Below, piece by piece: positions 6,309-23,307 of a stretch of 64,000 nucleotides of DNA. Source of the stretch: Hyphomicrobiales bacterium (GTDB lineage: Bacteria; Pseudomonadota; Alphaproteobacteria; Rhizobiales; Phreatobacteraceae). The translations under genes were made by a program, and so were the position numbers. The DNA lies in NCBI GenBank assembly GCA_017304475.1, contig JAFKKV010000016.1, forward strand, positions 1-64,000, in the 5' to 3' direction. Each line of letters opens with the position of its first letter. Positions within the stretch are counted from its first letter, which is position 1. Under the pieces are notes generated by a model. It saw nothing but the letters and a program-made list of their open reading frames with translations, was not told the DNA's origin and ran no database searches.

Positions 6309-6506
6309 CGCGACCTCTCGACAGTGCACTTGGCCCGGCCCAAAGGCCGCCGATGGCGCACGGGGGCGCCATCTCACCAACCGTAAGCTGTGCATCCGTC
6401 GCGCGGCGTTGTCGTCGCACTCAGCGCAAAGAGACCTCTCATTGCGCGCAAAAGGACGAATTCCGCGATGAAATCGACCGGATCACCAGCAACCGGGCGC
6501 CGAGGC

Positions 6507-7277: not shown

Positions 7278-7470
7278 GACGGGATCTCTTCTCGCGTGGA
7301 CTTGGATCGCCAGCATTGGCCGTCGGCCACGGCCGGACAAGCCCCTGCCCCGCAAGGCCGGTCCTCTCGGCATATGAACCGGCCCCGATGCCGTCGTCAG
7401 CCATTCCTTGACGCCAGGCAATACGCCTCAGCGGTGCTCGTCGCGCGCACCGGTCAGCCAACCCGCCCGA

Positions 7471-8652: not shown

Positions 8653-8672
8653 GGCGATCTCCAGGCGCGCGA

Positions 8673-9452
8673 TCAGCCGCGCATGTCGCGGGCAAGAGCT
8701 GTGGCAGCGCGGGTGATCACCGAGGTATCGGTGCCGACGCCGACAAAATCGACGCCGTCGGCGAGCCGCCGCTTGGCCTCGGCTTCGTTGGCGGTGAGAT
8801 AGCCGGAAGGCTTGCCGATCGCCTTGAGCCGCCGGAAGGCATCGTCGATGGCCCGCTGCACGGTCGGATGCTGGTTATCTCCGAGATGACCGAGCGAAGC
8901 GGCGAGATCTGCCGGGCCGATGAACACGGCGTCGACGCCGGGAACCGTGGCGATCCGCTCGAGCTGTTCGAGAGCCTCGCCGGTTTCGATCTGGACGATG
9001 ACACAGAGCTCGGCGGCGACCTGGCTGAAATAATCAGGGATCAGGCCGAACTGGGCCGCCCGCGAACTGCCCGAGACGCCACGCACGCCATGCGGCGGGA
9101 AACGGGTATAGGACACCGCGCGCTCGGCCTCCTCCGCGCTCTGCACATAGGGAAACAGCAGCGACTGGGCGCCCGCGTCGAGCAGGCGCTTGACCAGCAC
9201 CATGTCGGACCAGGCCGGCCGCACGATCGGCGCCGTGCCATGCATGGCGAGCGCGCGCAGATGCTCGACCACGCCGGGCAGCTCGTTGGGCGAATGTTCG
9301 GTGTCGATCAGCAACCAGTCGTAACCGCAGCCGGCCAGGAGCTCGGCGAGCAACGGGCTCGCCAGCGTCGAGAACAGCCCGATCTGCTGGCGGCGGCCGA
9401 GGTCCTGCTTGAACTGGTTCTTTGGGAAGATGCGGGTCTGGGAGGCAGTCAC
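8673..9452 (-). CDS. HpcH/HpaI-family class II (metal-dependent) aldolase
   Basis: 259 residues from a GTG at 9452 with AGGA 9 bases before it. The longer open frame upstream runs into the IclR gene and is discarded. The family cleaves 2-keto-3-deoxy acids such as 4-hydroxy-2-oxoheptanedioate or 2-keto-3-deoxy sugar acids to pyruvate (or a keto acid) and an aldehyde. Active-site features are visible: EHSPN with His53, Arg78 in IVRPAW, and the metal ligands Glu156 in QIETGEA and Asp182 in IGPADLAASLG. The gene starts 28 bp after the IclR stop, in the same operon. Pyruvate-forming cleavage of an imported acid is the likely role. Confidence 0.85.
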   Translation of the reverse strand: MTASQTRIFPKNQFKQDLGRRQQIGLFSTLASPLLAELLAGCGYDWLLIDTEHSPNELPGVVEHLRALAMHGTAPIVRPAWSDMVLVKRLLDAGAQSLLFPYVQSAEEAERAVSYTRFPPHGVRGVSGSSRAAQFGLIPDYFSQVAAELCVIVQIETGEALEQLERIATVPGVDAVFIGPADLAASLGHLGDNQHPTVQRAIDDAFRRLKAIGKPSGYLTANEAEAKRRLADGVDFVGVGTDTSVITRAATALARDMRG

Positions 9453-9480
9453 GGGGTCAGGTCCTGTTGAGACGAAGGCG

Positions 9481-10284
9481 TCAGGATCGTGCCGCGGCCA
9501 CCGCCCCGAAGGACAGTTGCACGGCACGCGTGAGTTCGGCGGCGATCCGGCGGATCGCCGGCGCGGCGAGGTCGACAAAGGGTTCGAGCGGCATGCGCTG
9601 GGCATGAATGGTGGCGCTGACACCGCCGACCGGCAGGCCGTCGCCATCGAGGATCGCCGCCGCGACGGTCCTGAGGCCATAGGCGTTCTCGCCGTCCGAG
9701 ACGGCATAACCCTGCTGGCGCACATCCCCGAGGCGCTCGAGAATGGCATCGACATCGGTCAGGGTCTTTTCCGAAACCTTGATCCGGTTGCTGCGCTCCA
9801 GCACCGCCTGCTGTTCGTGAAGCGGCAGATAGGCCAGCATGGCATGCCCGAGCGCCGCGCTATAGGCGCCGGTCCGGCTGCCGGTCCGCCGGTCGAGGTT
9901 CATCGGCAGATTGGCCTGCACGCGTTCGACATAAACGACATCGGCGCCGTCGAGCATGCCGAGCGAGGCCGCGTCGACCATGTCAGGTACCAGTTCGGCC
10001 AGCAGCGGCCGGGCCAGAACCTTCAGGTCGGCCCGCGCGAGCGGCGTATAGCCGAGTTCCAGGCATTTCAGCGTCAGCCGGTAGCGCCGGCTATGCGGCA
10101 CCGCCGCGAGATAGCCGAGCTGGCAGAGCGTATGGACGAGGCGGAACGACGTGCCCCGGTCGAGCCCGGCCCGCCCGGCGACCTCGGTGATGGTCAGTTC
10201 CGGCAGAGTCACGTCAAAAGCCCGCAGCACGGCGAAGACCTTCCCGACCGATTGCACGACGTTTTTCGGATTGTCTTCCACCAC
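9481..10284 (-). CDS. IclR-family transcriptional regulator
   Basis: 267 residues. An N-terminal winged helix-turn-helix (about residues 10-70, with TITEVAGRAGLDRGTSFR as the recognition region) precedes an IclR effector domain (about 75-255). LGYTPLARADL and the YERVQANLP-like region resemble the PcaR/PobR branch that senses aromatic or small organic acids. It lies inside the operon it presumably controls, 12 bp from the SDR gene, so autoregulation from the promoter near 13980-14007 is likely. Paired half-site motifs downstream of that promoter (13947-13976) are candidate binding sites. Confidence 0.88.
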   Translation of the reverse strand: MVEDNPKNVVQSVGKVFAVLRAFDVTLPELTITEVAGRAGLDRGTSFRLVHTLCQLGYLAAVPHSRRYRLTLKCLELGYTPLARADLKVLARPLLAELVPDMVDAASLGMLDGADVVYVERVQANLPMNLDRRTGSRTGAYSAALGHAMLAYLPLHEQQAVLERSNRIKVSEKTLTDVDAILERLGDVRQQGYAVSDGENAYGLRTVAAAILDGDGLPVGGVSATIHAQRMPLEPFVDLAAPAIRRIAAELTRAVQLSFGAVAAARS

Positions 10285-10296
10285 TGTCTCCGCGAA

Positions 10297-11001
10297 TTAG
10301 AGCGATGCTCCGCCACATACCGTGATCGCCTGGCCGGTCATAGCCGAGGCCGATGGCGACAACAGGAAGGCGGCGAGCGCGGCGATTTCATCGGGGCGGA
10401 CGAAGCGTCCGATGGGCGGGCGTTTCGGCAGCACCGGTCCGCGCGCCGGATCGGTCAGCATGGGCGTCTCTGTGGCGCCGGGAGCAATGACGTTGACCGT
10501 CACGCCGCGCGGCGCGAGTTCGATCGCCCAGGAGCGCGCCATGCCGACCATCGCGGCCTTGGTCGCGGCATATTGGCTGCGGCCGGCCGAGCCCGCGCTG
10601 GTGCGCGAACCGATCAGCACGATGCGTCCGCCCGCGGGAAGCGACGGCGCCAGCCGGTTGGCGAGGTCCTCGGCGACAGCGACATGCAGGTGCCACATGG
10701 CCGCCAGATCCTCCGCCTTGAGCGCGCCGAGCGGCCCCGACCGCAGGAAACCGGCCGCATGGACCAGCGCGGTGACGCCGGTCACCTCGGCCAGCACCCG
10801 CTCGACCGCGCCAGGTTCGGCGAGATCGGCGATGATGCTGCGGATGCGCTCGCCGCGATCCGGCACCGGACGGCGCGCCACCCCGGTAACCTGCCAGCCG
10901 GCGCCCGCCAGATGCTCGGCGATCGCCAGGCCGATGCCGGAACTGGCACCGGTGACGAGCGCGTGGCCCGCCACGGCAGGGTCATGGGAGGCTTTGGTCA
11001 C
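10297..11001 (-). CDS. SDR-family NAD(P)-dependent oxidoreductase
   Basis: 234 residues, a classical short-chain dehydrogenase. The cofactor motif TGASSGIG spans residues 17-24, the catalytic pair is Tyr144 and Lys148 in YAATK, and Ser132 lies in LIGSRTS. The C-terminal TGQAITVCGG segment is typical. Being a little short, it lacks a long substrate loop. It sits 9 bp after the ABC binding-protein gene and 12 bp before the IclR gene, so it is co-transcribed and probably oxidises or reduces a hydroxyl/keto group of the imported compound. Substrate unknown. Confidence 0.85.
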   Translation of the reverse strand: MTKASHDPAVAGHALVTGASSGIGLAIAEHLAGAGWQVTGVARRPVPDRGERIRSIIADLAEPGAVERVLAEVTGVTALVHAAGFLRSGPLGALKAEDLAAMWHLHVAVAEDLANRLAPSLPAGGRIVLIGSRTSAGSAGRSQYAATKAAMVGMARSWAIELAPRGVTVNVIAPGATETPMLTDPARGPVLPKRPPIGRFVRPDEIAALAAFLLSPSASAMTGQAITVCGGASL

Positions 11002-11010
11002 GGCGTCGGC

Positions 11011-12084
11011 TCAGCCCTTGTAGACCAGCGCCTCAGCCCGGATCTTCTCCGGATCGAAGGCGTTGATGTCGTTGATCAGATCATTGGTGTAGAAGCCCGA
11101 GAGATCGGCGATCTGCAGGCCGTTCATCTGGGCCTCGGTCGCGAACTCCTTGGGATCGATGCTGCCCATCTTGGCGCCCGGATAAGGCGGCGCATAAAGC
11201 TTGATCCGCCGGGCGATGCCCTGCACCACCGACTTGACCGCGTCCTCGGTGGAACTGCCGCGCGGCGCGGTTTCCGGATACATCGAGAGGAAGGCGCGGG
11301 CGCCCGCCTGCGGGCTCGCCAGCAGGAAGGTCGAGGCCTTGGCGACCGAGCGGCCGAGGCCGACGGCGAGAGACCGCTTGGTCTCGATGAACGGCTTGCG
11401 GGCGGTCAGGAACTGGCCGCCGATCATCGGCAGGTTGGCCGGCCGGTCGACGAAGCGCAGCGGAATATTGGCCGCCTCGATGACACCGAACCCGGTATCG
11501 TAATAGGCCAGCGCGTCGATGGCGTCGCGCTGCAAGGCGACACCCGCCTGCACGCCATTGCCGACGGCGATCCATTTCACGTCGGCATCGGGATCGATGC
11601 CCAGCGTCTTCAGCACGTTGCGGGTGACCGGATATTCGGTCGCGCCGAAATCCGATACGCCGACGCGCTTGCCCTTGAGGTCGGCATAGGAACGGATCGC
11701 CGAGTCCGGCTTGACCACCACGTCCCACTTATAGGGATAGGTATATTCGTAGAAGTTCAGCGCGCCCTTCCATTCGCCCTTGGCCAGCAGCGGCAGGCCG
11801 AAGGACGGCACGCCGATGCCGATATCGACATCGCCCTTGTCGATCGCGATCTGGACATTGGCATTGGTGCCGAGCGCGGCGGGCACGATGGTAAAGCCCT
11901 CCTCGCGGTTATAGCCGAGCGCCTCGCCGATCAACGCATTGATCACCGAGGGGCCCATGGCCTTCAGCCCGACGCCGAATTTCAGGCTGGCGAGCCCCTG
12001 AGCCATGGCCGACCGGTTGCCGAGGGCGAGCGCCCCGGCGAAGGCGGTGGAAGCGAGCATCCATTGACGGCGAGTAACGTTCAT
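11011..12084 (-). CDS. ABC transporter substrate-binding protein, NMT1/SsuA-like
   Basis: 357 residues. The N-terminus (TRRQWMLASTAFAGALALG) is an export signal with a twin-arginine-like TRRQW motif and an Ala-rich core; cleavage is expected near SAMAQG. The mature part has the NMT1/THI5-SsuA/TauA fold, seen in AIDKGDVDIGIGVPS and the DLKGKRVGVSDFGA segment. These periplasmic proteins feed sulfonates, nitrate, pyrimidine precursors or aromatic acids to the membrane complex. Permease and ATPase genes lie directly upstream in the same operon. The ligand cannot be told from sequence. Confidence 0.85.
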   Translation of the reverse strand: MNVTRRQWMLASTAFAGALALGNRSAMAQGLASLKFGVGLKAMGPSVINALIGEALGYNREEGFTIVPAALGTNANVQIAIDKGDVDIGIGVPSFGLPLLAKGEWKGALNFYEYTYPYKWDVVVKPDSAIRSYADLKGKRVGVSDFGATEYPVTRNVLKTLGIDPDADVKWIAVGNGVQAGVALQRDAIDALAYYDTGFGVIEAANIPLRFVDRPANLPMIGGQFLTARKPFIETKRSLAVGLGRSVAKASTFLLASPQAGARAFLSMYPETAPRGSSTEDAVKSVVQGIARRIKLYAPPYPGAKMGSIDPKEFATEAQMNGLQIADLSGFYTNDLINDINAFDPEKIRAEALVYKG

Positions 12085-12128
12085 CGTGACCTCCCCTGGT
12101 CTTTGTTCAGATTATTTCCGGGCTCAGA

Positions 12129-12974
12129 TTATTTCTGGCCGCGCCGGCCCCAATGCACGATGCGGTGCTCCAGGCGGCGGACGATCGAATGCAAGGTGAT
12201 GCCGAGCGCGCCCAGGATGACCAGCGCAGCGAAGACGCCGGCGGTATCGGTCACCGCCTGAGCCTGGGTGATCACCACGCCCATGCCCTGCTGGGCGCCC
12301 AGGAACTCGGCGACGATGGTGCCGAGCAGGGCATAGACCACCGCCATGTCCAGGCCGGCGAAGATGAACGGCGCGGCATGCGGCAGCTTGACGATGCGAT
12401 AGGTCTCGAAGGCGCTCGCCGACAGCGAGCGCATCAGGTCGAGCTTTTCCGGCTCGACCGAGCGCAGCCCGGTAAACGAGTTGATCAGCACGGGAAAGAA
12501 GGCGAGCAGCGCCGAAATGGCGATCTTCGAGCCGTCACCGAAGCCGAACCAGATGACCACCAGCGGGGCGATGGCGACCTTCGGCAGGCTCTGCAGCGCG
12601 AAGGCATAGGGCATCAGGATCTTCTCGACCGTGCGGATCTCGGCCATCAGCGATCCCAGCAGCAGGCCGAGGCCGGTGCCGATGGTGAAGCCGAGGGCCG
12701 CGTTCTTCAGCGAGCCCCAGAGCGGCAGGTAATAGCCGAGCGGGCTCGACGGGCTGACGGCAATGCCGGACCAGAGCGCCCTCACCACCGCCTCGGGCGC
12801 CGGCAGGATATAGCTCGGCACCTGCAGGTAGCGTACCGACAGGAGCCAGGCAGCGAGCAGCAGGACGAAACCGAAGGCCGCCAGCAGGCCGCCGCCGGGG
12901 CGCCAGGGCTCGCGTTTGGCCTTGCGTTCGGTTGACGGGGCGGCGGGCGCCTCGACCAGATGAACGGAGCTCAT
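12129..12974 (-). CDS. ABC transporter permease, SsuC/TauC-like
   Basis: 281 residues with about six hydrophobic segments. The conserved EAA-type loop is near the middle (EPEKLDLMRSLSASAFETYR), followed by the LPHAAPFIFAGL segment typical of SsuC/TauC permeases. Its start codon overlaps the stop of the upstream ATPase gene by four bases (ATGA), so the two are translationally coupled. With the neighbouring ATPase and binding protein it forms a complete importer in the inner membrane. Confidence 0.88.
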   Translation of the reverse strand: MSSVHLVEAPAAPSTERKAKREPWRPGGGLLAAFGFVLLLAAWLLSVRYLQVPSYILPAPEAVVRALWSGIAVSPSSPLGYYLPLWGSLKNAALGFTIGTGLGLLLGSLMAEIRTVEKILMPYAFALQSLPKVAIAPLVVIWFGFGDGSKIAISALLAFFPVLINSFTGLRSVEPEKLDLMRSLSASAFETYRIVKLPHAAPFIFAGLDMAVVYALLGTIVAEFLGAQQGMGVVITQAQAVTDTAGVFAALVILGALGITLHSIVRRLEHRIVHWGRRGQK

Positions 12975-13798
12975 TCGACCTCTCCCTGGGCGTTGAGCAG
13001 GCCTCGGATCTCGCGCGACAGCCGCGCATAGTCCGGGTGGCTGATGATGCCGTCGAGATTGCGCGGACGCGGGATCGGCACATTGAGGTCGGCGATGATC
13101 TTGCCCGGCCGCGCCGACATGACGATCACCCGGTCGCCCAGGAAGATCGCCTCGGAGATCGAATGGGTGATCAGCACGATGGTCTTGGCATTGGCCTGCC
13201 AGATCCGCTGCAATTCGAGATTCATCCGCTCGCGCGTCAACGCATCGAGAGCGCCGAAAGGCTCGTCCATCAGCAGGATGCGCGGGTCGCGCACCAGGGC
13301 GCGGCAGATGCCGGCGCGCTGCTGCATGCCGCCCGAGAGCTCGTAGGGATAGCGCGGGCCGAAATCGCCGAGGCCGGTCATGTCGAGCAACTGGTCGACC
13401 CGGCCGTCCTCCTTCGCCTTGTTGCCGCCGACCCGCAACGGCAGGCGGACATTTTCGCGCACCGTCAGCCAGGGCAAGAGGTTGGCCGACTGGAAGACCA
13501 CGCCGACCTCGCGCGACGGGCCGGTGATCGGCCTGCCGTCCAGGTCGAGACCGCCATCCTCATGCTCGTCCAGTCCCGCGATCAGCCGTAGCAGCGTGCT
13601 CTTGCCGCAGCCCGACGGACCGACGATCGCCACGAATTCCCCATCGCCGATGGCAAGGTCGATGCCGTCGAGGGCATGGACGCCCGCGCCGGTGGCGGTG
13701 CGATAGGTCTTGGAAAGTTGGCGCGCCTCGATCAGCGGGGTTTGCGGGCGGGGAAAGGCGGTCACGCTCGGTGTGGCGGCCATGGCTGTCGACGCCAT
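12971..13798 (-). CDS. ABC transporter ATP-binding protein, SsuB/TauB-like
   Basis: 275 residues. Walker A GPSGCGKST at 60-68, Q-loop VFQSANLLPW near 101, signature LSGGMQQR at 154-161, Walker B ILLMDEP at 174-180 and the H-loop ITHSISEA are all intact. The start at 13798 has a strong AAGGAGG nine bases before it. It is the first gene of the leftward operon that ends near 6507, and powers import with the permease it overlaps. The family is that of sulfonate/nitrate/taurine importers, but the ligand is unknown. Confidence 0.9.
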   Translation of the reverse strand: MASTAMAATPSVTAFPRPQTPLIEARQLSKTYRTATGAGVHALDGIDLAIGDGEFVAIVGPSGCGKSTLLRLIAGLDEHEDGGLDLDGRPITGPSREVGVVFQSANLLPWLTVRENVRLPLRVGGNKAKEDGRVDQLLDMTGLGDFGPRYPYELSGGMQQRAGICRALVRDPRILLMDEPFGALDALTRERMNLELQRIWQANAKTIVLITHSISEAIFLGDRVIVMSARPGKIIADLNVPIPRPRNLDGIISHPDYARLSREIRGLLNAQGEVE

Positions 13799-14362: not shown

Positions 14363-14731
14363 CTACCAGAGGTTCTTGCCGTCGATGACTTCGACAGGCA
14401 CGGCGTCGAGGTCGAAATCGTCGAACAGCCGCGTATTCACGCTGACCTTCGGGTTGTCGAAATCCGCCGTGCCGGTCGACCAGTCGGGCGTCTCGGTAAA
14501 AGTGCCGCAGCCGCAGGTGGCGCAGAAATGATGGGCGACCGTCCTCGACCCCCAGCGATAGGTCGCGACCTGTTCGATCGGCGTGGTCAGCCGGAACTGT
14601 TCCGGCTTGTAATAGGCCCAGAGCGCGCCGCGCTTCGAACAGAAGGAACAGGTGCAGCGGGTCACGCTGGCCGGCGCCTCGTCCAGCTCGAACCGCGTCG
14701 CGCCGCAATGACAGCTTGCCTTGATCGTCAT
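14363..14731 (-). CDS. GFA-family (glutathione-dependent formaldehyde-activating) zinc protein
   Basis: 122 residues, full family length. The ATG at 14731 follows GGAGG by 8 bases. The CENP-V/GFA cysteine pattern is present: CHCG near 7-10, CTCSFCSKRGALW in the middle, and HFCATCGCGTF after it. These cysteines bind two zinc ions. Family members include Gfa, which condenses formaldehyde with glutathione, but most have unproved functions. It lies 92 bp after the class II aldolase gene on the same strand and may be the last gene of that operon. An aldehyde-handling role would suit an upstream pathway that releases an aldehyde, but that is inference. Confidence 0.8.
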   Translation of the reverse strand: MTIKASCHCGATRFELDEAPASVTRCTCSFCSKRGALWAYYKPEQFRLTTPIEQVATYRWGSRTVAHHFCATCGCGTFTETPDWSTGTADFDNPKVSVNTRLFDDFDLDAVPVEVIDGKNLW

Positions 14732-14823: not shown

Positions 14824-15480
14824 CTATGTGAGGCGTGCAGCCGGCTGCTGGCCGTAGCTCTGGTATTTGCCGACCACGGTCATGATCTCCTGGTCGTCGA
14901 GGGTCGGCGGCGTGCCCAGGCTGCGGCAGAGGATATATTGCCTGGCAAGCTCCTCGACGGTCACCGCCAGCGACAGCGCCTTGGCCATCGAGACATGGGC
15001 GGCGACGACACCGTGATGGGCCAGGAGGCAGGCCCGCCGCCCGCGCATCGCCGCCGTCACGGCATCGGCGAGCTCCTGCGTGCCGAAGGTCGCGTAGCCG
15101 GCGCAACGGATATCCGGTCCGCCGGCCGCAGCGATCGAATAGTGGATGGCGGGAATGCCCAGTCCCATGATGGCGAGTGCCGTGGCATGGGTCGAATGGG
15201 TATGCACGACAGCGTTGAGGTCGTCGCGCGCCTTGAGGATATCGCGATGCAGACGCCATTCGCTCGACGGCAGCACGTCGCCGTCGAAGCTGCCGTCCCA
15301 GCGAACCTCGACGATCAGTTCGGGCCTCAGCGCATCATAGGCGATGCCGGTCGGCGAGATTAGGAAGCCGTCGCCATGGCGCATGCTGACATTGCCCGAC
15401 GTGCCTTTGTTGATGCCGAGCCGGTTCATGGCCCGACAGGTCTCGATCAGTTCTTCACGCAGTCCGGTGTCGCCGCTCAT
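14824..15480 (-). CDS. Class II aldolase (L-fuculose-1-phosphate aldolase-like)
   Basis: 218 residues. The ATG at 15480 is preferred to the one at 15486 because AGGAG lies exactly 6 bases before it, but abuts the other. Family residues are visible: GTSGNVS phosphate loop (27-33), Glu74 in SSEWRLH, zinc ligands His93 and His95 in HTHSTHA, and a third His in LLAHHG near 155. Relatives split sugar-1-phosphate ketoses (fuculose-1-P, ribulose-1-P, 5-deoxyribulose-1-P) into DHAP and an aldehyde. Standing beside an MtnA-like isomerase and a nucleoside phosphorylase, it resembles Ald2 of the DHAP shunt. It follows the deaminase gene by 16 bp. Confidence 0.85.
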   Translation of the reverse strand: MSGDTGLREELIETCRAMNRLGINKGTSGNVSMRHGDGFLISPTGIAYDALRPELIVEVRWDGSFDGDVLPSSEWRLHRDILKARDDLNAVVHTHSTHATALAIMGLGIPAIHYSIAAAGGPDIRCAGYATFGTQELADAVTAAMRGRRACLLAHHGVVAAHVSMAKALSLAVTVEELARQYILCRSLGTPPTLDDQEIMTVVGKYQSYGQQPAARLT

Positions 15481-15496
15481 CGTCATCTCCTGCCCG

Positions 15497-17011
15497 TCAG
15501 TCCGCCTTGAATCCGCCGGCCCCGATCGCGCCGCAGGCCGGACAGCCGCATGCCCCGTCGAAGACCCGCCTTTGCCAGGCGCCATAGGGCGCATGCAGGC
15601 CGGCCAGATCACTTTTGTCGGCGGCGAGCGCACGCAATTCGCCGGCGCAGGCCGCGGCCTCGTCGAGCGCCTCGTCCTCGTCGAAGCACTCGATACGGCC
15701 GTGGCGCATCAGCCATTCCCCACCGACCATCAAGGCGCTGACCGAGCGCGCATCGGCATGCATCACCAGGCTGTCGATCGAGATGGGCGCGGCCGTCAGC
15801 GGCTCCCGGCGAAAATTCAACACCATGAGATCGGCCGCCGCGCCCGGCGCCAGCAACCCCTGAACCTGTTCGACGCCGAGTGCGCCCGCCCCGCCGGCCG
15901 TCGCCGCGCGGAACGCTTCCACCGGCTTCAGCCAGGTTTCATGGTCCGAGCCCGGCGCGCGCCCGGACATGACGGCGAAGCGCATCGCCTCGAACAGGTC
16001 GTGGCGGCCGCCGGTATTCGAGCAGTCGGTGCCGAGCGCCAGTTTGAGCCCGGCATCGAGGCAAGCCCTGATATCGAGCTGGCCGGAGCCGAGCATGCGG
16101 TTGCTCGTCGGGTTGTGCACCAGGGTCACGCCGCGGCGTGCCAGCAGCTGGTGGTCACCCGGCTCCAGCCAGATCCCATGCGCGACCGACAATTTCGGGG
16201 TCAGCAGCCCCTGGCGGTTCATCTCGCCGACCAGGCCGCCCGGCCAGGCTGCCCGGCTCGCCGCGGCCTGCGGCAAGGTTTCCAGGAGATGGGTATGGGC
16301 GCCGAGCCCGAGCTCGTCCTGCAGCGCGTGCCAGAGCGCGATCATGACGGGCGAGCAGCGCTGCGGCCCATTGGGCCCGAGCAGCAGGCTGATGCGCGCG
16401 GCGTCACCACGCCCGGCCTCTGCCGCGAGATCGGCAAAGGAAGCGCGCACATCATCGGGCGAGCGCGTCACGCGCGGCGCCAGGTCGGCCAGCACGTCGG
16501 GGCTCAAGGGAATGCCGAGGAAGTCGTGGTCGGTGACATCCTGGAAGAACGGCGCGAAACCGACCCGCATGCCGGTCCTGGCATGGGCCTCGAACGCTGC
16601 CTGGAGGAAGCCGACCTGCGGATAATGGTCGACATAGCCGGCAATGCCGTTGCGGATCATTTCTGCGGCGGTGAGCATGATCGCCGCCCTGGCGCAGCGC
16701 TCGGAAAAGCCGCGGCCATATTTGATCGCGTAATAGGACCAGAGCTCGAGCGGCAGGGAGTTTTCCGTGCCGCGCAGCAAGGTCGAGCTCGAATGGACAT
16801 GGCCGTCATAGAGCGGCGGCGCGATCAACGCGCCGCGCACATAGAGCACGGCATCCGCGCCGGCGGCGGCCGCCTCGACTTCCCCGGGCGCCAGGATCGC
16901 GGCGATCCGGTCGCCCTCGACCAGCACTCCGCCGGGCACTGGTCCACGATCGTCCAGGCCGGTCCAGACCTGGCCACCGCCGATGCAGATACGCCTGGTC
17001 GCTCTCGCCAT
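15497..17011 (-). CDS. Amidohydrolase-family deaminase (ATZ/TRZ, 8-oxoguanine/MTA-SAH deaminase-like)
   Basis: 504 residues. Metal-site motifs of the amidohydrolase superfamily appear in order: DGHVHSS (His71, His73), HTHLLET, AHGIWLEPGD and ALGTDCSNTG, with HNPTSNRMLGSG before the last. This set is typical of the branch that deaminates guanine-type bases, S-adenosylhomocysteine, methylthioadenosine or 5'-deoxyadenosine. The start at 17011 lies 17 bp after the isomerase stop. The C-terminus carries an unusual extra Cys cluster, CGCPACG. In this operon the enzyme most likely deaminates an imported nucleoside or its free base. An alternative is a chlorohydrolase-type activity on a xenobiotic. 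Confidence 0.8.
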   Translation of the reverse strand: MARATRRICIGGGQVWTGLDDRGPVPGGVLVEGDRIAAILAPGEVEAAAAGADAVLYVRGALIAPPLYDGHVHSSSTLLRGTENSLPLELWSYYAIKYGRGFSERCARAAIMLTAAEMIRNGIAGYVDHYPQVGFLQAAFEAHARTGMRVGFAPFFQDVTDHDFLGIPLSPDVLADLAPRVTRSPDDVRASFADLAAEAGRGDAARISLLLGPNGPQRCSPVMIALWHALQDELGLGAHTHLLETLPQAAASRAAWPGGLVGEMNRQGLLTPKLSVAHGIWLEPGDHQLLARRGVTLVHNPTSNRMLGSGQLDIRACLDAGLKLALGTDCSNTGGRHDLFEAMRFAVMSGRAPGSDHETWLKPVEAFRAATAGGAGALGVEQVQGLLAPGAAADLMVLNFRREPLTAAPISIDSLVMHADARSVSALMVGGEWLMRHGRIECFDEDEALDEAAACAGELRALAADKSDLAGLHAPYGAWQRRVFDGACGCPACGAIGAGGFKAD

Positions 17012-17027
17012 GGTCGTCGCGTTTCCT

Positions 17028-18050
17028 TCAGCCGAAATGGGCGCGCAGCGCATCGGCCGCGAACACGCCCTCACCGGTCGCGATAGCACCGACGAATTCC
17101 GGCGGCGTGACATCGAAGGCCGGATACCAGCCGCGCGCCAGCGGCGTCGCGGTCGGCTGCCCCAGGCACATCAGGCTCTCGCGTCCGTCGCGCTCCTCCA
17201 TCGGCACCTGGTCGGGCGTCGCGGCATGGCGGTCGGGTGCCGGCACCATGGCGATATAGGGAATGCCGAAATGCCGGGCGGCGATGGCGATCTGCAAGGT
17301 GCCGACCTTGTTGATGACATGGCCCGACAAGGTGACGCGATCGGCGGCGGTCATGTAGCGGGTGACCAGGCCTCGATCCATGGCGTGCGCCGCCATGTTG
17401 TCGGTGATCACGGTGACGTCGATGCCCATTTCAGCGACGCTGTGGGCGGTCAGCCGCGACCCCTGCAGATAGGGCCGGGTCTCGGTGCAGACGACCTTGA
17501 CGCGCTTGCCGGCGCGCAGCGTCGCGGCCAGCGTCTCGATCAGGCTCGCCTCGGCCCAGCAATGGGTGAGAATGGTGTCGCCGTCCTCGACCAGTTCCGA
17601 GGCGTTCTGGCCGAGCCGCCGGTTGCGCGCGAAGCGCTTCTCCCAGGCATCCTCCATGATCCCTTGCATGCCCGATGCAAAATGATCCGGCGCCAGGCCC
17701 CGCGCCGCCTCGGCCATCATCGAGACGACGGTGCGGATATGGTTGTTGGTCGGCCGCGTCGCGGTCAACCGGGTCGCCGCCCGGTCGATGATCGCGAGCC
17801 GCTCCTCGACGCGCGCGCTGCGCTCGGCCAGACGGGCCGCCAGCACCATGCCGGCGCTGGCCGCGAAAAACGGACCGCTGCTCTGGGTCACCATCTCCTC
17901 GATGGCGACCGCGACATCCTCATAGGTGGTGCAGGTGACGAAACGGAGATCGAAGGGAAAGGTCCGGCGGTCGAGGATCCGCACCGCGTCGTCGTCGAGG
18001 ATGACGCTCCGGCGCACCAGGGTGGGTTCGACAAGGCTGATGTCATGCAT
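17028..18050 (-). CDS. MtnA-like sugar-1-phosphate isomerase (eIF2B-alpha fold)
   Basis: 340 residues. It aligns by eye with S-methyl-5-thioribose-1-phosphate isomerase: the catalytic cysteine in TILTHC (Cys164), ETRPYLQGSRLTA (190-202), the catalytic aspartate in VITDNMA (Asp217), AADRV and NKVGT. The usual GADRI is AADRV, and the glycine-rich stretch after the Cys (NTGALAT type) is replaced by WAEASLIET, so it is a diverged paralogue with possibly altered substrate. MtnA enzymes turn an aldose-1-phosphate into a ketose-1-phosphate. The gene is 8 bp after the phosphorylase, whose product would be its substrate. Confidence 0.82.
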   Translation of the reverse strand: MHDISLVEPTLVRRSVILDDDAVRILDRRTFPFDLRFVTCTTYEDVAVAIEEMVTQSSGPFFAASAGMVLAARLAERSARVEERLAIIDRAATRLTATRPTNNHIRTVVSMMAEAARGLAPDHFASGMQGIMEDAWEKRFARNRRLGQNASELVEDGDTILTHCWAEASLIETLAATLRAGKRVKVVCTETRPYLQGSRLTAHSVAEMGIDVTVITDNMAAHAMDRGLVTRYMTAADRVTLSGHVINKVGTLQIAIAARHFGIPYIAMVPAPDRHAATPDQVPMEERDGRESLMCLGQPTATPLARGWYPAFDVTPPEFVGAIATGEGVFAADALRAHFG

Positions 18051-18058
18051 GACCGGGC

Positions 18059-18907
18059 TCAGCTCCGATCGAGCGGCGTGACGGCCGCGGCCGTCAGCGT
18101 GGCGCCACCTTCGGCCACCCTGCGATTGTCCCAGAGGGTCAGCCGCCGGATCGCCTCGGCGCCGGTCTGGCAGGCCCTGAGGATGCCGCCATTGTCGCCC
18201 CATTCGCCGGTCATGCGGTTGGCGATGACCGAGCAGACCGAGCCGGCGCGCAGACCGGAGAGGCGCGCGAGCGTGAACAGCGCAGCTGTCTCCATCTCGA
18301 AATTCAGCACCTCGGCGCGCTTCATCTCCTCGAAGATGCGCTCGCCCTCCAGCGATTTGTGACCGTTGACCCCGGGACGCCCCTGCCCGGCCAGGAACGA
18401 GCCGGAGGTGGCGCCGGTACCGACGCGATAGGCATGGCCGAGCGTTGCCGCGGCATCGGCCAGTGCGAAGGTCACCTCATGCGAGGCGGCTGCCGGATAT
18501 TCCGGTCGGACATAGAGATTGGTGGTGCCGTCGAGCCTGACGGAGGCGTCGTTGATGATCAGCGAGCCGGTCTTGATGTCGTCGCGCAGGGCGCCGGTGG
18601 TGCCGACCCGGATGAAGGTGTCGATGCCCAGGCGGAACAGGTCGTGCAGGATGATCTCGAGCGAAGGCGCGCCGATGCTGGTCGACACCGCGCCGATGCG
18701 CACGCCGCCATAGCTGCCGACCGCGGCGCGATAGCCGCGCGGCAGGTCGACCACCCGGGCCTCCTGCCACTGCCCGGCCATCACCCTGACCCGGTCCGGA
18801 TCGCCGGGAAGCAGGACGTAGCGCGGCAGGTCGAGAGTGGCGAGCAGGTCATGGCGGGTGCTGTCGCCGGTATCGGCGGTCGCCTTGGTCGGCACGGGGG
18901 CATTCAT
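18059..18907 (-). CDS. Nucleoside phosphorylase (PNP/UDP family, uridine-phosphorylase-like)
   Basis: 282 residues; the ATG at 18907 has AAGGAG at 8 bases. The phosphate-binding GDPDRV lies at 35-40, followed by IRVGTTGAL and the ribose/base motif NFEMETAAL near 215, all of the uridine phosphorylase branch of PNP_UDP_1. The enzyme splits a nucleoside with phosphate into a free base and (deoxy)ribose-1-phosphate. Being directly followed by an MtnA-like isomerase and a class II aldolase, it is best read as the entry step of sugar recovery. Whether it prefers a purine, pyrimidine or 5'-deoxynucleoside is not decided by the visible residues. Confidence 0.85.
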   Translation of the reverse strand: MNAPVPTKATADTGDSTRHDLLATLDLPRYVLLPGDPDRVRVMAGQWQEARVVDLPRGYRAAVGSYGGVRIGAVSTSIGAPSLEIILHDLFRLGIDTFIRVGTTGALRDDIKTGSLIINDASVRLDGTTNLYVRPEYPAAASHEVTFALADAAATLGHAYRVGTGATSGSFLAGQGRPGVNGHKSLEGERIFEEMKRAEVLNFEMETAALFTLARLSGLRAGSVCSVIANRMTGEWGDNGGILRACQTGAEAIRRLTLWDNRRVAEGGATLTAAAVTPLDRS

Positions 18908-18963
18908 CGGGAAGACTCCTTGAAGATCGTGCGGGCGGAGGCCGTGCCTCCACCCGAGGCAAA

Positions 18964-19809
18964 TCAGGCCGTGCGCCAGCGGACGAAGCGCCATTCCAGG
19001 ACGGCGACCGTGCCGAACATGACCAGCGCCAAAGCCGACGAGGTCAGGATGGCGGCATAGAGCAGGTCGGTCCGGTAGTTGAACGTCGCCTGGATGATCA
19101 GCGCGCCGATGCCGGATTCGGATCCGATCCACTCGCTGACGATGGCACCGATGACGCTGGTGGTGCAGGCGATGCGGAGCGCCGAGAACAGGAACGGCAT
19201 GGAGCGCGGCAGACGCAGCCGGAAGAACACCTCGCGCCGGGTCGCCGACATCATGCGCATCAGCTCGAGTTCCGAGGGCGACACGGATTCGAAGCCGCGG
19301 ATCATGTTCACCAGGGTCGGAAAGAAGCAGATGATCGCAGCGATCATGATCTTGGAGGCGATCGACAGCCCGAAAATGGTGATCAGCACCGGCGAGAGCG
19401 CGATGACCGGGATCGTGTTGAAGATGATCGCGACCGGGAAATACATGCGCTTCAGCGTGGCGCTGTGAATGAAGATGCAGGCGACCGCGACGGCCGCAGC
19501 ATTGCCGATGAGGAAGCCCGTGAGGGCCTCGATCAGCGTCGGCCAGAGATTGATCAGCAGCAGGGCGCGATGCACGCCGACCGCCTCGATCACCCCGACC
19601 GGGCTCGGCGCGATGAACGGCTTGACGTCGAAGGCGACGATCGCCCCCCACCACAGGGCCAGCAGCGACAGGAGGCCGAGAACCGGCCAGAGCCCGTTCG
19701 CCAGGCGCCGGTAGGACGCGGATCGCGAAACGGCCCGTGTCGTCATGATTTTGGGCGAGGCGGCGGCTGCCCTCTCGGCCTGCGATCGCGTCGTTTCGAT
19801 GATGGTCAT
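18964..19809 (-). CDS. ABC transporter permease, SsuC/TauC-like
   Basis: 281 residues with about six hydrophobic stretches. The coupling loop (SPSELELMRMMSATRREVFFR) and LPRSMPFLFSALR are of the nitrate/sulfonate/pyrimidine-precursor permease family. The start overlaps the ATPase stop by four bases (ATGA), so expression is coupled. It is the second transporter set of this kind in the window and is only distantly similar to the permease at 12129-12974, so recent duplication is unlikely. Cargo is probably the nucleoside handled by the four enzymes that follow. Confidence 0.88.
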   Translation of the reverse strand: MTIIETTRSQAERAAAASPKIMTTRAVSRSASYRRLANGLWPVLGLLSLLALWWGAIVAFDVKPFIAPSPVGVIEAVGVHRALLLINLWPTLIEALTGFLIGNAAAVAVACIFIHSATLKRMYFPVAIIFNTIPVIALSPVLITIFGLSIASKIMIAAIICFFPTLVNMIRGFESVSPSELELMRMMSATRREVFFRLRLPRSMPFLFSALRIACTTSVIGAIVSEWIGSESGIGALIIQATFNYRTDLLYAAILTSSALALVMFGTVAVLEWRFVRWRTA

Positions 19810-20600
19810 GGCGCGCTCCCATAGGCGCGTTCCAGCACTGCGCGCAGATCCGATGTCATGGCGAAAAAGGCGGGGTCGTTGCGGTCGATGCGGTTGTCCG
19901 GCTTGCGCGCCCTCAAATCGATGGTCTCGATGATCCGGCCCGGCCCCGCGCCCATCACCACCACGGACTGGCCGAGAAAGGCCGCTTCCGTCAGGCTGTG
20001 GGTGACGAAGACGACGGTGGTTCCGGTCTCGCGCCAGATGCGCAGCAATTCGTCGTTGAGCCGGTCGCGGGTGATCTCGTCGAGCGCGCCGAAGGGCTCG
20101 TCCATCAGCAGCACGTCCGGACTGGTGACGAGCGCACGGGCGATCGAGACGCGCTGGCGCTGGCCGCCCGACAATTCGTGCGGCAGCGCGCTCTCGCGAC
20201 CCTTCAGACCGACCAGCTCGACCAGTTCCTCGGGCGTGCGGCCGTCGCGGCGGCGGCGCTCCCAGTCACCGACCTGCAGTGGCAGGCGCACATTGTCGAT
20301 GACGCTGCGCCAGGGCAGCAGCGTCGCGTCCTGGAAGACGAAGGAGATCCGTCGCTCGGCGCGGGCGCGGGCCGGCTCGGCGCCGAACACGGCGACCTCG
20401 CCCTCGGAACAGGGCAAGAGATCGGCGATCGCCCTGAGAAGCGTCGACTTGCCACAGCCGGACGGGCCGATGAGCACGACGAATTCGCCCGCCTCCGCCT
20501 TCAGCGACACGCCGGTGAAGGCGAGGATGTCCTGGTCGCCACGGCTGAACGCGACGCCGGCATCGGCGACGTCGATCGCCCATTGGATCGGTTGCAGCAT
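19806..20600 (-). CDS. ABC transporter ATP-binding protein, SsuB-like
   Basis: 264 residues from the ATG at 20600, placed just after the binding-protein stop (20605); an in-frame ATG at 20627 would overlap that gene. Walker A GPSGCGKST at 45-53, signature LSGGQRQR at 143-150, Walker B VLLMDEP at 163-169 and H-loop VTHSLTEA are intact. It energises the permease it overlaps. Confidence 0.9.
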   Translation of the reverse strand: MLQPIQWAIDVADAGVAFSRGDQDILAFTGVSLKAEAGEFVVLIGPSGCGKSTLLRAIADLLPCSEGEVAVFGAEPARARAERRISFVFQDATLLPWRSVIDNVRLPLQVGDWERRRRDGRTPEELVELVGLKGRESALPHELSGGQRQRVSIARALVTSPDVLLMDEPFGALDEITRDRLNDELLRIWRETGTTVVFVTHSLTEAAFLGQSVVVMGAGPGRIIETIDLRARKPDNRIDRNDPAFFAMTSDLRAVLERAYGSAP

Positions 20601-20604
20601 CGGA

Positions 20605-21669
20605 TCAGCCCAGTCGCGGCCGCGCATCGGCGGTCATGTCGAGAATGTCATGGGTGGCGAAGCCGGCGATATCAGGCACCCGGGTCTCGAAGCGTTTGAT
20701 GCTGTCGAACAGCTTGATCTGCCGTTCGATCCGCTCCGCTTCGAACCAGCCCCAGCCCTTGGTCCGGGTGATCCGGTCGAACGAGATTTCCATGACGATG
20801 TCGACGGTCGCCCGTTCAATCTCCCGGTCGAGATTGGGATAGGTGTCGCAAAGAATGTCGATCGCCTCTGCCCGGTTCTGGAACGCCCAGCCCCAGCCCT
20901 TGGCGACCGCCTTGATGAAGCGGGCCAGCACCGGCTTCTGCGCCTCATAGGTCTCGGACGAGGTGAAATAGGCATTGGCGTAATTGGTGATGCCCGCCGA
21001 TTCCGAGGTCATCACGATCCGGTCCGGACCGACCACCTGCATGGCCTTGGTATTGGTGATGAATCCGGTGACGGCATCGACCTGGCCGGTGGTCAGCGCG
21101 GTCATGTCGTGGCCCATATTGACCACCCTGACCTTGGCTGGGTCGATCCGGTGCTGCGCCAGGATCAGGTCCAGGATGAAGCGGCCGGTGGGCTGTACGG
21201 CGACCGTCTTGCCGACGAAGTCGGAGGGGATGCGGATCGGTGCGCGCGGCAGCGAGATGAAGGCATAAGGCGAATATTGATAGCCGCAGGCGAACATCTT
21301 CACCGGGCGTCCCGCGCCATAGGCCATCAGGGCCTGAGAGGTGCCGGAGAGCTGGCCGACCAGCGCCTGGCCGGTCAGCACCGGCGGCACGGTCTGGGCG
21401 TTCGGGCCGCCGGGCACGAAACTGACGTTCAAGCCCTGTTCGGCGAAGAAACCCTTCTTCTCGGCGATCACGTCGCCGATCTGGCCATTGCTCATCAGCC
21501 AGTCATATTGGACCTTGAGGGCGGTCAGCCCCTGGGCATCGGCCGGCCCGATACTGGCAAGCGCGCCGCCGCCGAGGCCGAGCCCGGCCAAGGTCGCGGC
21601 GGACGCGCGGAGCATGTCGCGGCGGCTCGGCGACGACACAAGCGAACGATCTGGCCCTGGTTTTCCCAT
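20605..21669 (-). CDS. ABC transporter substrate-binding protein, NMT1/THI5-like
   Basis: 354 residues. GGAGGGG precedes the ATG at 21669. The N-terminus has SRRDMLRASAATLAGLG, a good twin-arginine export signal (SRRxxL plus hydrophobic core), cleaved near PADAQG. The mature part shows the NMT1/THI5 fold (LKVQYDWLMSNGQIGDVIAEKKG is a typical opening, and TTGQVDAVTGF a typical mid segment). Relatives bind hydroxymethylpyrimidine, riboflavin precursors, taurine or nitrate. As first gene of an operon that encodes nucleoside breakdown, its ligand is probably a nucleoside or base, by inference. Confidence 0.85.
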   Translation of the reverse strand: MGKPGPDRSLVSSPSRRDMLRASAATLAGLGLGGGALASIGPADAQGLTALKVQYDWLMSNGQIGDVIAEKKGFFAEQGLNVSFVPGGPNAQTVPPVLTGQALVGQLSGTSQALMAYGAGRPVKMFACGYQYSPYAFISLPRAPIRIPSDFVGKTVAVQPTGRFILDLILAQHRIDPAKVRVVNMGHDMTALTTGQVDAVTGFITNTKAMQVVGPDRIVMTSESAGITNYANAYFTSSETYEAQKPVLARFIKAVAKGWGWAFQNRAEAIDILCDTYPNLDREIERATVDIVMEISFDRITRTKGWGWFEAERIERQIKLFDSIKRFETRVPDIAGFATHDILDMTADARPRLG

Positions 21670-21810: not shown

Positions 21811-23307
21811 TCAGGCCCGGCACTGCCGCACGGCCTCGGACAAGGCGCGGATGCCGGCGTCGATCTTCGCCGCCGGGATCGACGAGACGCCGAGCCGCAT
21901 GAAGCGGCGGCAGGGATCGGGACCATGGAAGAACCGGTCGCCGGCGTCGAACACCACGCCCCTGGCCGCCGCCGCTGGCGCGATCCGACGGCAATCGAAG
22001 CCTTCGGGACCCTCGACCCAGAAGCTTGAGGCGCCTTCCGAATGGCGCCAGGCGAAGTCCGGCATCCAGCGCCGCAGCGCGGCGTCGAGCGCCAGCGACC
22101 TTTCGCCCAGCGCCTTGGCCGCGCGGCGCAGATAGCCGCGGTAATAGCCACGCTCGATGAAGATCGCGAGGGCGCGCTGGTTGTTGCCGGGCGGGTGGCG
22201 ATGGATCAGCCGCCTGAGCGCCCTCACCTGCCGGATGACCAGGGCCGGCGCGACGATGAAGCCGAGGCGAAGCCCCGGCGCGACCAGTTTCGACAGGCTG
22301 CCGATATGAATGACCCGCTGGTGCCGATCGAGGCCCTTGAGGGCGGCGAGAGCGCTCGGCTCGCGCAGCAATTCGTTGTCGTAGCTGTCCTCGATGACGA
22401 TGAAGTCCCTGGCCGCCGCCCGCTCCAGCAGCGCCAGGCGGCGCTCGGCCGGCATGACCGCGGTGGTCGGACACTGGTGCCCGCCGGAGACATAGACATA
22501 GTCGCAGCGATCCAGGGCCTCGGACACGACGAGGCCTCCTTCGTCGATCACAAGTTCGCGGATGACGGCTTCGGTCGCCCCCAGGATATGGCGGAAATCG
22601 GCCAGACCCGGATTCTCCATGCCGACCACGGTGCCGCGTCCGGCCAGCAGCTGGGCGACCAGGTAGCGCGCCTGCTGGCCGCCCAACGTGATGATGATCT
22701 CGTCCGGCCGGGCCCAGATGCCGTGATGGGGCAGGATATGACGGCGCAACTGCTCGACCAGCTCGACATCGTCCTCGTCGACCACGTCGCGGCCCCATTG
22801 GGCGATCTCGAGCACGCTGAGCGCCGCCCGCTCGCATTCCCGCCAGTGATTGGTCGGAAACAGGCTCGGATCGAACTGGCCATAGGTGAAGGCAAAGACC
22901 GGTTCGGCATCGCCGGCCCGCGCCGCCCCGGCCGCGTCATCGGCGAGCGCGATCTTGAAGCGGCCGCGCCAGTCCGGACCCGCCGCCTCCCCGGCCTCGG
23001 CCGGCGGCGTCGCCGGGCTCGGCATCTGGTCCGCGACGACCACGCCGGAACGAGGCCGCACCACCAGGTAGCCCTGTTCCACCAGGCCGCCATAGGCGAG
23101 CATCGCCGTGTTGCGGCCGATCTTCAGCATGCGCGCGAGATCGCGCCCCGAGGGCAGACGCGTGCCACGCGCGAGCCGGCCGGCCTCGATCGCCCGGATC
23201 ACCGCACGCATGATCTCGACATAACTCAACCGGTCGCCGCGCTCGCCCGCCGGAAAGACCGATGTCCAGGCGAGATCGGCGGCGGTTCCTTTGGTCCTGG
23301 GCGCCAT
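21811..23307 (-). CDS. MocR/GabR-type regulator (GntR DNA-binding plus aminotransferase domain)
   Basis: 498 residues. A GntR winged helix lies at about 27-95 (SGRDLARMLKIGRNTA recognition region), then a Pro/Ala-rich linker, then a fold-type I aminotransferase domain (about 135-495). The PLP-binding lysine is Lys340 in GSLSK and Asp307 (IEDSYDNE) would hold the pyridine nitrogen, so PLP binding appears intact. Such regulators usually sense amines, GABA, taurine or pyridoxal itself and control a neighbouring operon. Here the nucleoside operon starts 141 bp downstream on the same strand, so read-through is possible too. Confidence 0.88.
   Translation of the reverse strand: MAPRTKGTAADLAWTSVFPAGERGDRLSYVEIMRAVIRAIEAGRLARGTRLPSGRDLARMLKIGRNTAMLAYGGLVEQGYLVVRPRSGVVVADQMPSPATPPAEAGEAAGPDWRGRFKIALADDAAGAARAGDAEPVFAFTYGQFDPSLFPTNHWRECERAALSVLEIAQWGRDVVDEDDVELVEQLRRHILPHHGIWARPDEIIITLGGQQARYLVAQLLAGRGTVVGMENPGLADFRHILGATEAVIRELVIDEGGLVVSEALDRCDYVYVSGGHQCPTTAVMPAERRLALLERAAARDFIVIEDSYDNELLREPSALAALKGLDRHQRVIHIGSLSKLVAPGLRLGFIVAPALVIRQVRALRRLIHRHPPGNNQRALAIFIERGYYRGYLRRAAKALGERSLALDAALRRWMPDFAWRHSEGASSFWVEGPEGFDCRRIAPAAAARGVVFDAGDRFFHGPDPCRRFMRLGVSSIPAAKIDAGIRALSEAVRQCRA

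Follow-up and report, generated by a model that had tools for sequence, protein, structure and literature searches.

The window analysed here, a stretch of 64,000 nucleotides from a Hyphomicrobiales bacterium (GenBank assembly GCA_017304475.1, contig JAFKKV010000016.1, positions 1 to 64,000), carries a leftward run of seven genes at 14824-21669 for an ATP-binding cassette (ABC) importer, a nucleoside phosphorylase, an isomerase related to MtnA, an amidohydrolase and a class II aldolase (Table 1). We read this run as an operon that would import a pyrimidine-type ribonucleoside and break it down by the logic of the dihydroxyacetone phosphate (DHAP) shunt, and from the sequence evidence we give this reading a probability of about 50%. 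The operon is probably a variant of the shunt that is fed by a phosphorylase, linked to an importer, directed at a pyrimidine nucleoside and served by an isomerase from a separate clade. As the parts of the literature available to us describe the DHAP shunt for purine-derived 5'-deoxynucleosides and 5-deoxypentoses, a pyrimidine version with its own importer would, if true, widen the range of nucleosides that bacteria can eat by this chemistry, and a function could then be assigned to the well-separated clade of the isomerase.

In the proposed pathway the ABC importer would take up the nucleoside compound and the amidohydrolase would probably hydrolyse the base side first, for example from a cytosine type to a uracil type. 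The phosphorylase would then release uracil to give ribose-1-phosphate, possibly modified at the 5' position, which the isomerase would convert into ribulose-1-phosphate (Ru1P), and the aldolase would cleave this into DHAP and an aldehyde. With plain ribose the latter would be glycolaldehyde, and with a sugar modified at the 5' position a different derivative of acetaldehyde. We infer the reactions, their order, the base and the sugar from the genes.

Operon structure and conservation

The genes for the substrate-binding protein, the ATPase and the permease overlap and are followed by gaps of 56, 8, 16 and 16 bp, so that a leftward run of seven genes with gaps of at most 56 bp, as described in an earlier sequence-only reading of this DNA, was borne out in families and order by the reading frames and the family searches. 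An identical order of the seven genes is present in a second genome of the same genus (G207, locus L008), in Reyranella sp. CPCC 100927 (L014) and in a metagenome-assembled genome of the Rhizobiaceae (L018), and the conservation of the gene set, one of the checks named in the earlier reading, is thus found in three further genomes and goes beyond chance. The operon proteins of these three loci are 39.5-94% identical to those of the window, with 77-94% over the genes compared in G207. The source genome (8.38 Mb, 79 contigs, 100% complete) has an estimated contamination of 5.44%, and because G207 from the same genus carries the same operon, an origin of the window contig from contamination is argued against. 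The gene for the substrate-binding protein in G207 (L008, 7652-8727) matches in two reading frames, so this copy appears frameshifted.

Within the order the seven-gene operon is rare. Homologues of the isomerase (E<=1e-40) were found in five of 397 genomes, namely the source genome, G207 and three genomes from a single further family (40-41% identity), and the operon is present in only the first two of them. A wider search (E<=1e-50) in a phylum sample of 398 genomes returned the own genome only, and a pattern-based scan of a collection of species genomes with a single isomerase sequence as query gave 38 loci.

A homologue of the MocR-type regulator lies beside all four operons; it is found upstream in the window (141 bp from the operon) and in L008 and L014, and in L018 it follows the operon on the opposite strand. 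This regulator is probably the controller of the operon; no shared operator was obvious by eye in the aligned stretch between the regulator gene and the gene for the substrate-binding protein. The GFA-family gene was set aside as an operon member, as it is present in L008 and has no match in L014 or L018.

Table 1. Genes of the operon and its two closest neighbours in the window.
Feature	Position	Strand	Family evidence and remarks
NMT1/THI5-type substrate-binding protein, 354 aa	20605..21669	-	PF09084 2.6e-40
ABC importer ATPase	19806..20627	-	PF00005; overlaps the genes for binding protein and permease
ABC importer permease	18964..19809	-	PF00528 4.4e-27
Uridine-phosphorylase-type nucleoside phosphorylase, 282 aa	18059..18907	-	PF01048 4.4e-30; TIGR01718 213.8 bits
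Variant-clade MtnA-fold isomerase (IF-2B/MtnA-like), 340 aa, putative aldose-1-phosphate isomerase	17028..18050	-	PF01008 3.8e-49
ATZ/TRZ-type amidohydrolase with extra C-terminal tail, 504 aa	15497..17011	-	PF01979 1.6e-39
FucA-type class II aldolase, 218 aa	14824..15480	-	PF00596 8.6e-52
MocR-type regulator (GntR + aminotransferase-like)	21811..23307	-	PF00392 + PF00155
GFA-family protein, loose associate	14363..14731	-	PF04828; 92 bp downstream of aldolase

Phosphorylase and aldolase

The preference for a pyrimidine comes from the phosphorylase, which was rightly called uridine-phosphorylase-like before. In all four operons it is identical to E. coli Udp at 14 of the 18 positions checked (G26, R30, R48, R91, G93, T94, F162, Q166, R168, E196, M197, E198, I220 and R223), and we take Gln166 and Arg168 to be the uracil-binding residues. 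Mainly because residues of this type are kept, a uracil-type base is preferred, and judged by these positions a pyrimidine nucleoside appears likelier as substrate than 5'-deoxyadenosine, methylthioadenosine (MTA) or inosine. These three compounds, named earlier together with uridine for enzyme assays, are disfavoured as substrates by Q166, R168, F162, I220 and R223 being kept in four of four operons and by a gene similar to MTA phosphorylase (MTAP) and genes for MtnK, MtnA and an aldolase elsewhere in the genome. In the uridine-phosphorylase-like proteins of other loci (L022, L023 and L025) Q166 and R168 fall into a gap and position 221 is Asp. His8 of Udp, presumably a contact to the 5'-OH of the ribose, aligns with D or T in the operon enzymes in a column of uncertain register, where a hand-shifted reading gives H, H, L and I.

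The aldolase of the window shares 48.6% identity with FucA and 45.3% with Ald2, both of E. coli. Twelve of the 14 FucA positions checked are kept in the window, L008 and L014 (G28, N29, T43, G44, S71, S72, E73, H92, H94, Y113, H155 and Y209), while F206 is changed to Y and R212 to Q, and L018 also differs at T43. The residues that we take to be zinc ligands (H92, H94 and H155) and catalytic (E73 and Y113) are all kept in the window enzyme. Its scores stay below the cut-offs for L-fuculose-phosphate aldolase (NF005984, 246.2 vs 264; TIGR01086, 227.2 vs 400.25), and in the aldolase tree three operon aldolases group with that of L015 (support 100/98).

Isomerase

According to its structure model (pLDDT 92.3) the isomerase is predicted to have the MtnA fold. 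The five best Foldseek matches (TMq 0.79-0.87) are titled MtnA or eIF2B-related, and the product complex of Bacillus subtilis MtnA (2yvk) matches with a TMq of 0.85. Cys160 and Asp240 of MtnA, which we take to be the catalytic residues, correspond to Cys164 and Asp237 of the window isomerase and are invariant in 20 of 20 aligned rows. The aspartate of the GADR segment is present in 20 of 20 rows, and each of the ten tabulated variant rows retains R94, C160, Q199 and N250 (Bacillus velezensis MtnA numbering). The protein scores above the cut-offs of the subfamily model NF004326 (277.3 vs 271) and of TIGR00524 (192.4 vs 185.85) and below that of the equivalog model TIGR00512 (208.7 vs 279).

In a phylogeny of 50 rows, 42 rows form one clade with a 100/100 split from the remaining eight. 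The latter include MtnA from E. coli ATCC 25922 and B. velezensis and the second copy of the window genome, so that a separation from known MtnA, left open by the sequence-only reading, is now seen in a tree that was rooted at its midpoint, drew a tool warning on long branches meeting and does not contain DrdI among its rows. The MtnA of the E. coli DHAP shunt falls on the canonical side and was therefore rejected as a member of the variant clade.

Members of this clade carry MVTQ[SG].GP in place of the canonical RGAP, and C[WYF][AG][ED] with seven residues fewer in place of CNAG...GTAL. Both motifs are present in 38 of 42 rows, that is the window and 37 of 41 clustered loci, a share that is no prevalence because these loci were fetched by similarity to the window isomerase; RGAP is found in the other four, L012, L047, L048 and L049. 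The window isomerase itself has QSSGP instead of RGAP and, with the seven-residue gap, Cys-Trp-Ala-Glu instead of Cys-Asn-Ala-Gly, and the stretch WAEASLIET noticed earlier behind the catalytic-type Cys is indeed present. From this changed active site a new substrate had been considered. The change is real and yet clade-wide, and some of the loci that have it lie in apparent clusters of methionine salvage with MtnB and MtnC. An altered site that is unique to the operon was rejected, and because the change marks the whole clade it does not by itself show a new substrate. The clade was met in Alphaproteobacteria, Betaproteobacteria, Actinomycetota, Chloroflexota, Bacillota and Fusobacteriota, and no characterised member is named in the literature passages and listings searched.

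Gene context of the variant isomerases

Genes within 6 kb of the isomerase were counted in the 37 variant loci, with the families of cluster members checked in part. As source of a sugar-1-phosphate, 17 loci have a nucleoside phosphorylase and seven a cluster with the methylthioribose (MTR) kinase MtnK (both 0, neither 13); as sink, 17 have a class II aldolase and nine MtnB and MtnC (both 0, neither 11). This pattern fits an enzyme that works on a ribose-1-phosphate and links its source to a sink. Nine of the 37 loci have both a nucleoside phosphorylase and a class II aldolase, with importers of the NMT1 type in three, of the CNT type in three, of the BMP type in one and of the energy-coupling factor (ECF) type with a QueT-family component in two. 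Together with the conserved active-site positions, clusters that pair the isomerase with phosphorylases and aldolases support phosphorolysis, 1-phosphate isomerisation and aldol cleavage as the predicted logic of the pathway. The earlier idea of a catabolic, transport-linked version of the DHAP shunt for an imported nucleoside therefore stands with regard to an importer-linked and phosphorylase-fed route, but not with regard to the purine substrates proposed for it.

Family checks placed the purine nucleoside phosphorylase (PNP) of Arthrobacter L016 and the MTR kinases of L010 and L015 above their cut-offs, and the MTAP-like protein of Chloroflexi L039 below (222.2 vs 274.85). By locus, NMT1 importers are found in L008, L014 and L018, CNT in L016, L017 and L027, and BMP-type importers in L022, L023, L025, L026, L028 and L034. 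Six Chloroflexi loci (L037, L038, L039, L041, L043 and L044) combine the variant isomerase with an ECF-type set made up of a double ATPase, a protein similar to EcfT and a component of the QueT family (checked in L039), and five of the six have an MTAP-like phosphorylase.

Four Amycolatopsis loci (L025, L026, L028 and L034, about 2770-11940) show one run of a BMP-type importer, a uridine-phosphorylase-like protein, a DszC/SfnB-like monooxygenase, the variant isomerase, MtnC, MtnB and an ARD-family protein, which looks like a methionine salvage fed by an imported nucleoside. Families were checked in L025, where MtnC and MtnB score above cut-off, an ARD-family protein is present and the phosphorylase was tabulated without Q166 and R168. 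A Polaromonas plasmid (L056) carries pieces of the isomerase (59-76% identity) and the aldolase (63-69%), a methylthioinosine (MTI) phosphorylase with 323.8 bits (cut-off 223), an annotated nucleoside deaminase with only a weak match to the TadA model (55.4 vs 150) and an NMT1-like importer with a binding protein of 26% identity; isomerase and importer lie on one strand and the remaining genes on the other. In L015 (Paenochrobactrum) and L057 (Pseudorhodobacter) the variant isomerase lies near a thiamine-pyrophosphate-dependent enzyme and genes of a tripartite ATP-independent periplasmic (TRAP) transporter, with CoA-transferases, an MTR kinase and an aldolase also in L015. In Geodermatophilus (L019-L021 and L045) it adjoins an aldolase. 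In L020 the two genes are preceded by those for a 5'-nucleotidase-type protein and for a molybdenum hydroxylase of three subunits, and a gene for a CstA-type transporter lies further along.

Amidohydrolase and importer

The 25 matches shown for the amidohydrolase in NCBIfam are all far below cut-off. A search in 385 genomes of the class (E<=1e-60) revealed that the operon amidohydrolases share RGTEN[SA].PLE.W and GPN[AG]P.RCS with proteins of seven other genomes (42-47% identity). Five of these (L087, L090, L091, L092 and L093) lie with a homologous NMT1 importer (binding protein 33-39%) in what we call type-B operons; the contig of L088 spans 3.7 kb and encodes an enoyl-CoA hydratase, and in the 10.5 kb of L089 no importer match was seen. 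Between importer and amidohydrolase, L087 and L090 have genes for an FAD oxidoreductase-type protein, a CoA-transferase, an enoyl-CoA hydratase and a LysR regulator, and L091 and L092 a ferredoxin too, with the remaining genes of L091-L093 judged by size only. No match to the phosphorylase or isomerase was found in the type-B stretches, and a weak match to the aldolase (33%, 82 bits) lies beyond the importer in L091. The annotation of Rhizobium leguminosarum GLR17 shows a type-B set as well, in which the amidohydrolase is truncated where the stretch ends and matches in part at 37%. Because type-B operons pair them with an acyl-CoA gene set, importer and amidohydrolase need not serve nucleosides alone.

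Nevertheless, the amidohydrolase repeatedly recurs near nucleoside or importer genes. Among the three plasmid relatives looked at (of 320 matching records, 31.6-33% identity), two lie with a BMP importer and a nucleoside hydrolase, and the third has a nucleoside deaminase and a different ABC importer beside it. The putative nucleoside importer can be assigned to the NMT1 family, and its substrate-binding protein matches solved chains weakly, with 4nmy and the formyl-aminopyrimidine-binding protein 3ix1 both at about 1e-14. Three Rhizobium plasmid homologues of the importer (of 347 records, 45-48% identity) had no enzyme set or a type-B-like set around them, and no ligand was identified from these.

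Weighing the proposed pathway

Several observations weigh against the pathway as proposed. With 213.8 bits the phosphorylase stays below the cut-off of the uridine phosphorylase equivalog TIGR01718 (280.3), and unlike Udp the operon enzymes have longer N- and C-termini and differ in all four operons at positions 8, 195 and 221 (Y195 to F, V221 to A) and in L018 also at position 95. The TIGR01718 score cannot decide the base because a Rhizobium uridine-phosphorylase-like protein beside deoC (L060), with E and N at positions 166 and 168, scores as well (216.6 bits). In the isomerase the RGA segment at MtnA positions 51-53, which we take to be part of the phosphate site, is missing and replaced by Q-S-x or Q-G-G. 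The aldolase of L018 is only 39.5% identical and sits on a long branch outside the operon group, and in the Polaromonas plasmid L056 aldolase (6420-7047) and isomerase (9001-9986) are split between frames and appear broken or mis-sequenced. On the tree, the mutual exclusion of sources and of sinks comes down to one sink change and three source changes, with which pair tests cannot reach significance, and because of these few changes it was rejected as independent evidence. Moreover, the importer family and an amidohydrolase homologue of 42-47% identity co-occur without phosphorylase and isomerase, NMT1-type importers are to our knowledge not classic nucleoside importers, and the family search found no dedicated aldehyde dehydrogenase or reductase among the operon genes.

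The other nucleoside genes of the genome bear on the choice of substrate. One contig (C51) carries a conventional cluster of a BMP binding protein, a double ATPase, a permease, cytidine deaminase, PNP, a DeoC/LacD-type aldolase, a pyrimidine phosphorylase unrelated in family to the window enzyme, and DeoB. A second (C75) carries canonical MtnA and MtnK (493.8 bits, cut-off 275) and, on the other strand within about 6 kb, a double ABC ATPase and a class II aldolase. The genome has four PF01048 genes, among which only that of the window is of the uridine phosphorylase type, the others being PNP and AMP nucleosidase, both above cut-off, and an MTAP-like protein on contig C14 (TIGR01694, 268.6 vs 274.85 for the matched stretch only). 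A genome lacking phosphopentomutase or cytidine deaminase would have favoured a plain-nucleoside role, but both are present. Ordinary nucleosides as well as MTA and 5-deoxyribose thus seem to be handled by other genes, which makes a further substrate plausible for the operon, a redundant role being conceivable as well.

As a special case of the pyrimidine reading, plain cytidine or uridine could be degraded via ribose-1-phosphate and Ru1P to DHAP and glycolaldehyde, bypassing phosphopentomutase, as a bacterial parallel to the Ru1P-aldolase pathway of haloarchaea. Most of the Udp active-site positions checked are in agreement with it, the aldolase matches NF053831, the model for Ru1P aldolase, with 173 bits (cut-off 300) and there is the haloarchaeal precedent, with a different isomerase step (PMC9700705, in the parts available). 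However, it would be redundant with DeoB, pyrimidine phosphorylase, cytidine deaminase, PNP and the BMP importer of one and the same cluster, and we consider it unlikely. Because of this cluster for ordinary nucleosides we slightly prefer a 5'-modified pyrimidine nucleoside. One may tentatively go further, to a dedicated pathway for a natural 5'-modified pyrimidine nucleoside that would be new as a bacterial nutrient, with altered phosphate and C5 pockets in the isomerase clade that fit several C5-modified ribose-1-phosphates, and with importer, deaminase and phosphorylase swapped around a conserved isomerase-aldolase core in Alphaproteobacteria, Betaproteobacteria, Actinomycetota and Chloroflexota; this is possible, with doubt prevailing.

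A route in which the amidohydrolase first deaminates 5'-deoxyadenosine, MTA or another purine 5'-deoxynucleoside and phosphorolysis follows, in the manner of the known DHAP shunt, is quite unlikely. The isomerase and aldolase resemble the shunt enzymes, and there are other clusters of the clade with phosphorylases of the PNP or MTAP type and with a different kind of amidohydrolase; the operon amidohydrolase also matches the models for 5'-deoxyadenosine and MTA deaminase, but with 153.8 bits against a cut-off of 522 (NF005557) and 110.6 against 779 (NF012037). In addition, the operon amidohydrolases have Asn where all seven amidohydrolases from other clusters of the clade carry His, the phosphorylase has uracil-type positions, and other parts of the genome encode an MTAP-like protein, MtnK, a canonical MtnA and an aldolase. 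Methionine salvage with the isomerase acting as MtnA on methylthioribose-1-phosphate might be suspected from the MtnB and MtnC genes in nine of the 37 variant loci, and yet L008, L014 and L018 have the aldolase and no such cluster member within 6 kb, MtnB and MtnC are not among the window genes family-searched and a canonical MtnA exists elsewhere, making it very improbable. It is also unlikely, though less so than a purine, that importer and amidohydrolase serve a non-nucleoside nitrogen compound and merely share a transcript with a phosphorylase, isomerase and aldolase that salvage something else. The type-B operons, which pair the same importer family with a homologous amidohydrolase without phosphorylase and isomerase, speak for such an arrangement, whereas the seven genes stand together in one order in four genomes and two of the three plasmid relatives of the amidohydrolase lie with a nucleoside importer and a nucleoside hydrolase.

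Relation to known systems

Like the DHAP shunt and the disposal of 5-deoxyribose (mtnK-mtnA-ald2 in E. coli ATCC 25922 and drdK/I/A), the operon combines an MtnA-fold isomerase and a class II aldolase, and would thus perform an MtnA-like isomerisation followed by cleavage to DHAP and an aldehyde. It differs in its uridine-phosphorylase-type entry enzyme, which takes the place of the MTR kinase or the MTA/5'-deoxyadenosine phosphorylase of the shunt, in the additional NMT1 importer and amidohydrolase and in the clade of its isomerase. In the parts of the cited papers available to us, the E. coli DHAP shunt handles 5'-deoxynucleosides (PMC10986504, PMC12632272), and the drd clusters (drdK, drdI and drdA of Bacillus thuringiensis) consist of a kinase or phosphorylase, an isomerase and an aldolase, so that phosphorylase-fed clusters and clusters with sugar transporter genes have already been predicted in print (PMC6079011). 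The non-carboxylating pentose bisphosphate pathway of halophilic archaea likewise reaches DHAP with a nucleoside phosphorylase, an isomerase from the same superfamily and a Ru1P aldolase similar to FucA, but its ribose-1,5-bisphosphate route has a kinase and a phosphatase (PMC9700705), neither of which was identified among the operon genes. An operon of the present kind is not described in the available parts of PMC6079011, PMC10986504, PMC12632272, PMC9700705, PMC10418091 and PMC6302742, and searches of open-licence papers by title and abstract did not find one, which does not show its absence from print.

Neighbouring genes in the window

On the same strand, 6507-13798 holds genes for an enoyl-CoA hydratase-type protein, a BNR-repeat protein, an HpcH/HpaI aldolase, an IclR regulator and short-chain dehydrogenase/reductase (SDR) proteins, followed by an apparent second importer that was read from translations (binding protein at 11011-12084, permease and ATPase). 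The binding protein of this importer matches solved structures weakly. At 327-6254, again on the minus strand, the window encodes a protein of 1975 aa with a two-partner-secretion domain and twelve MBG_2 matches.

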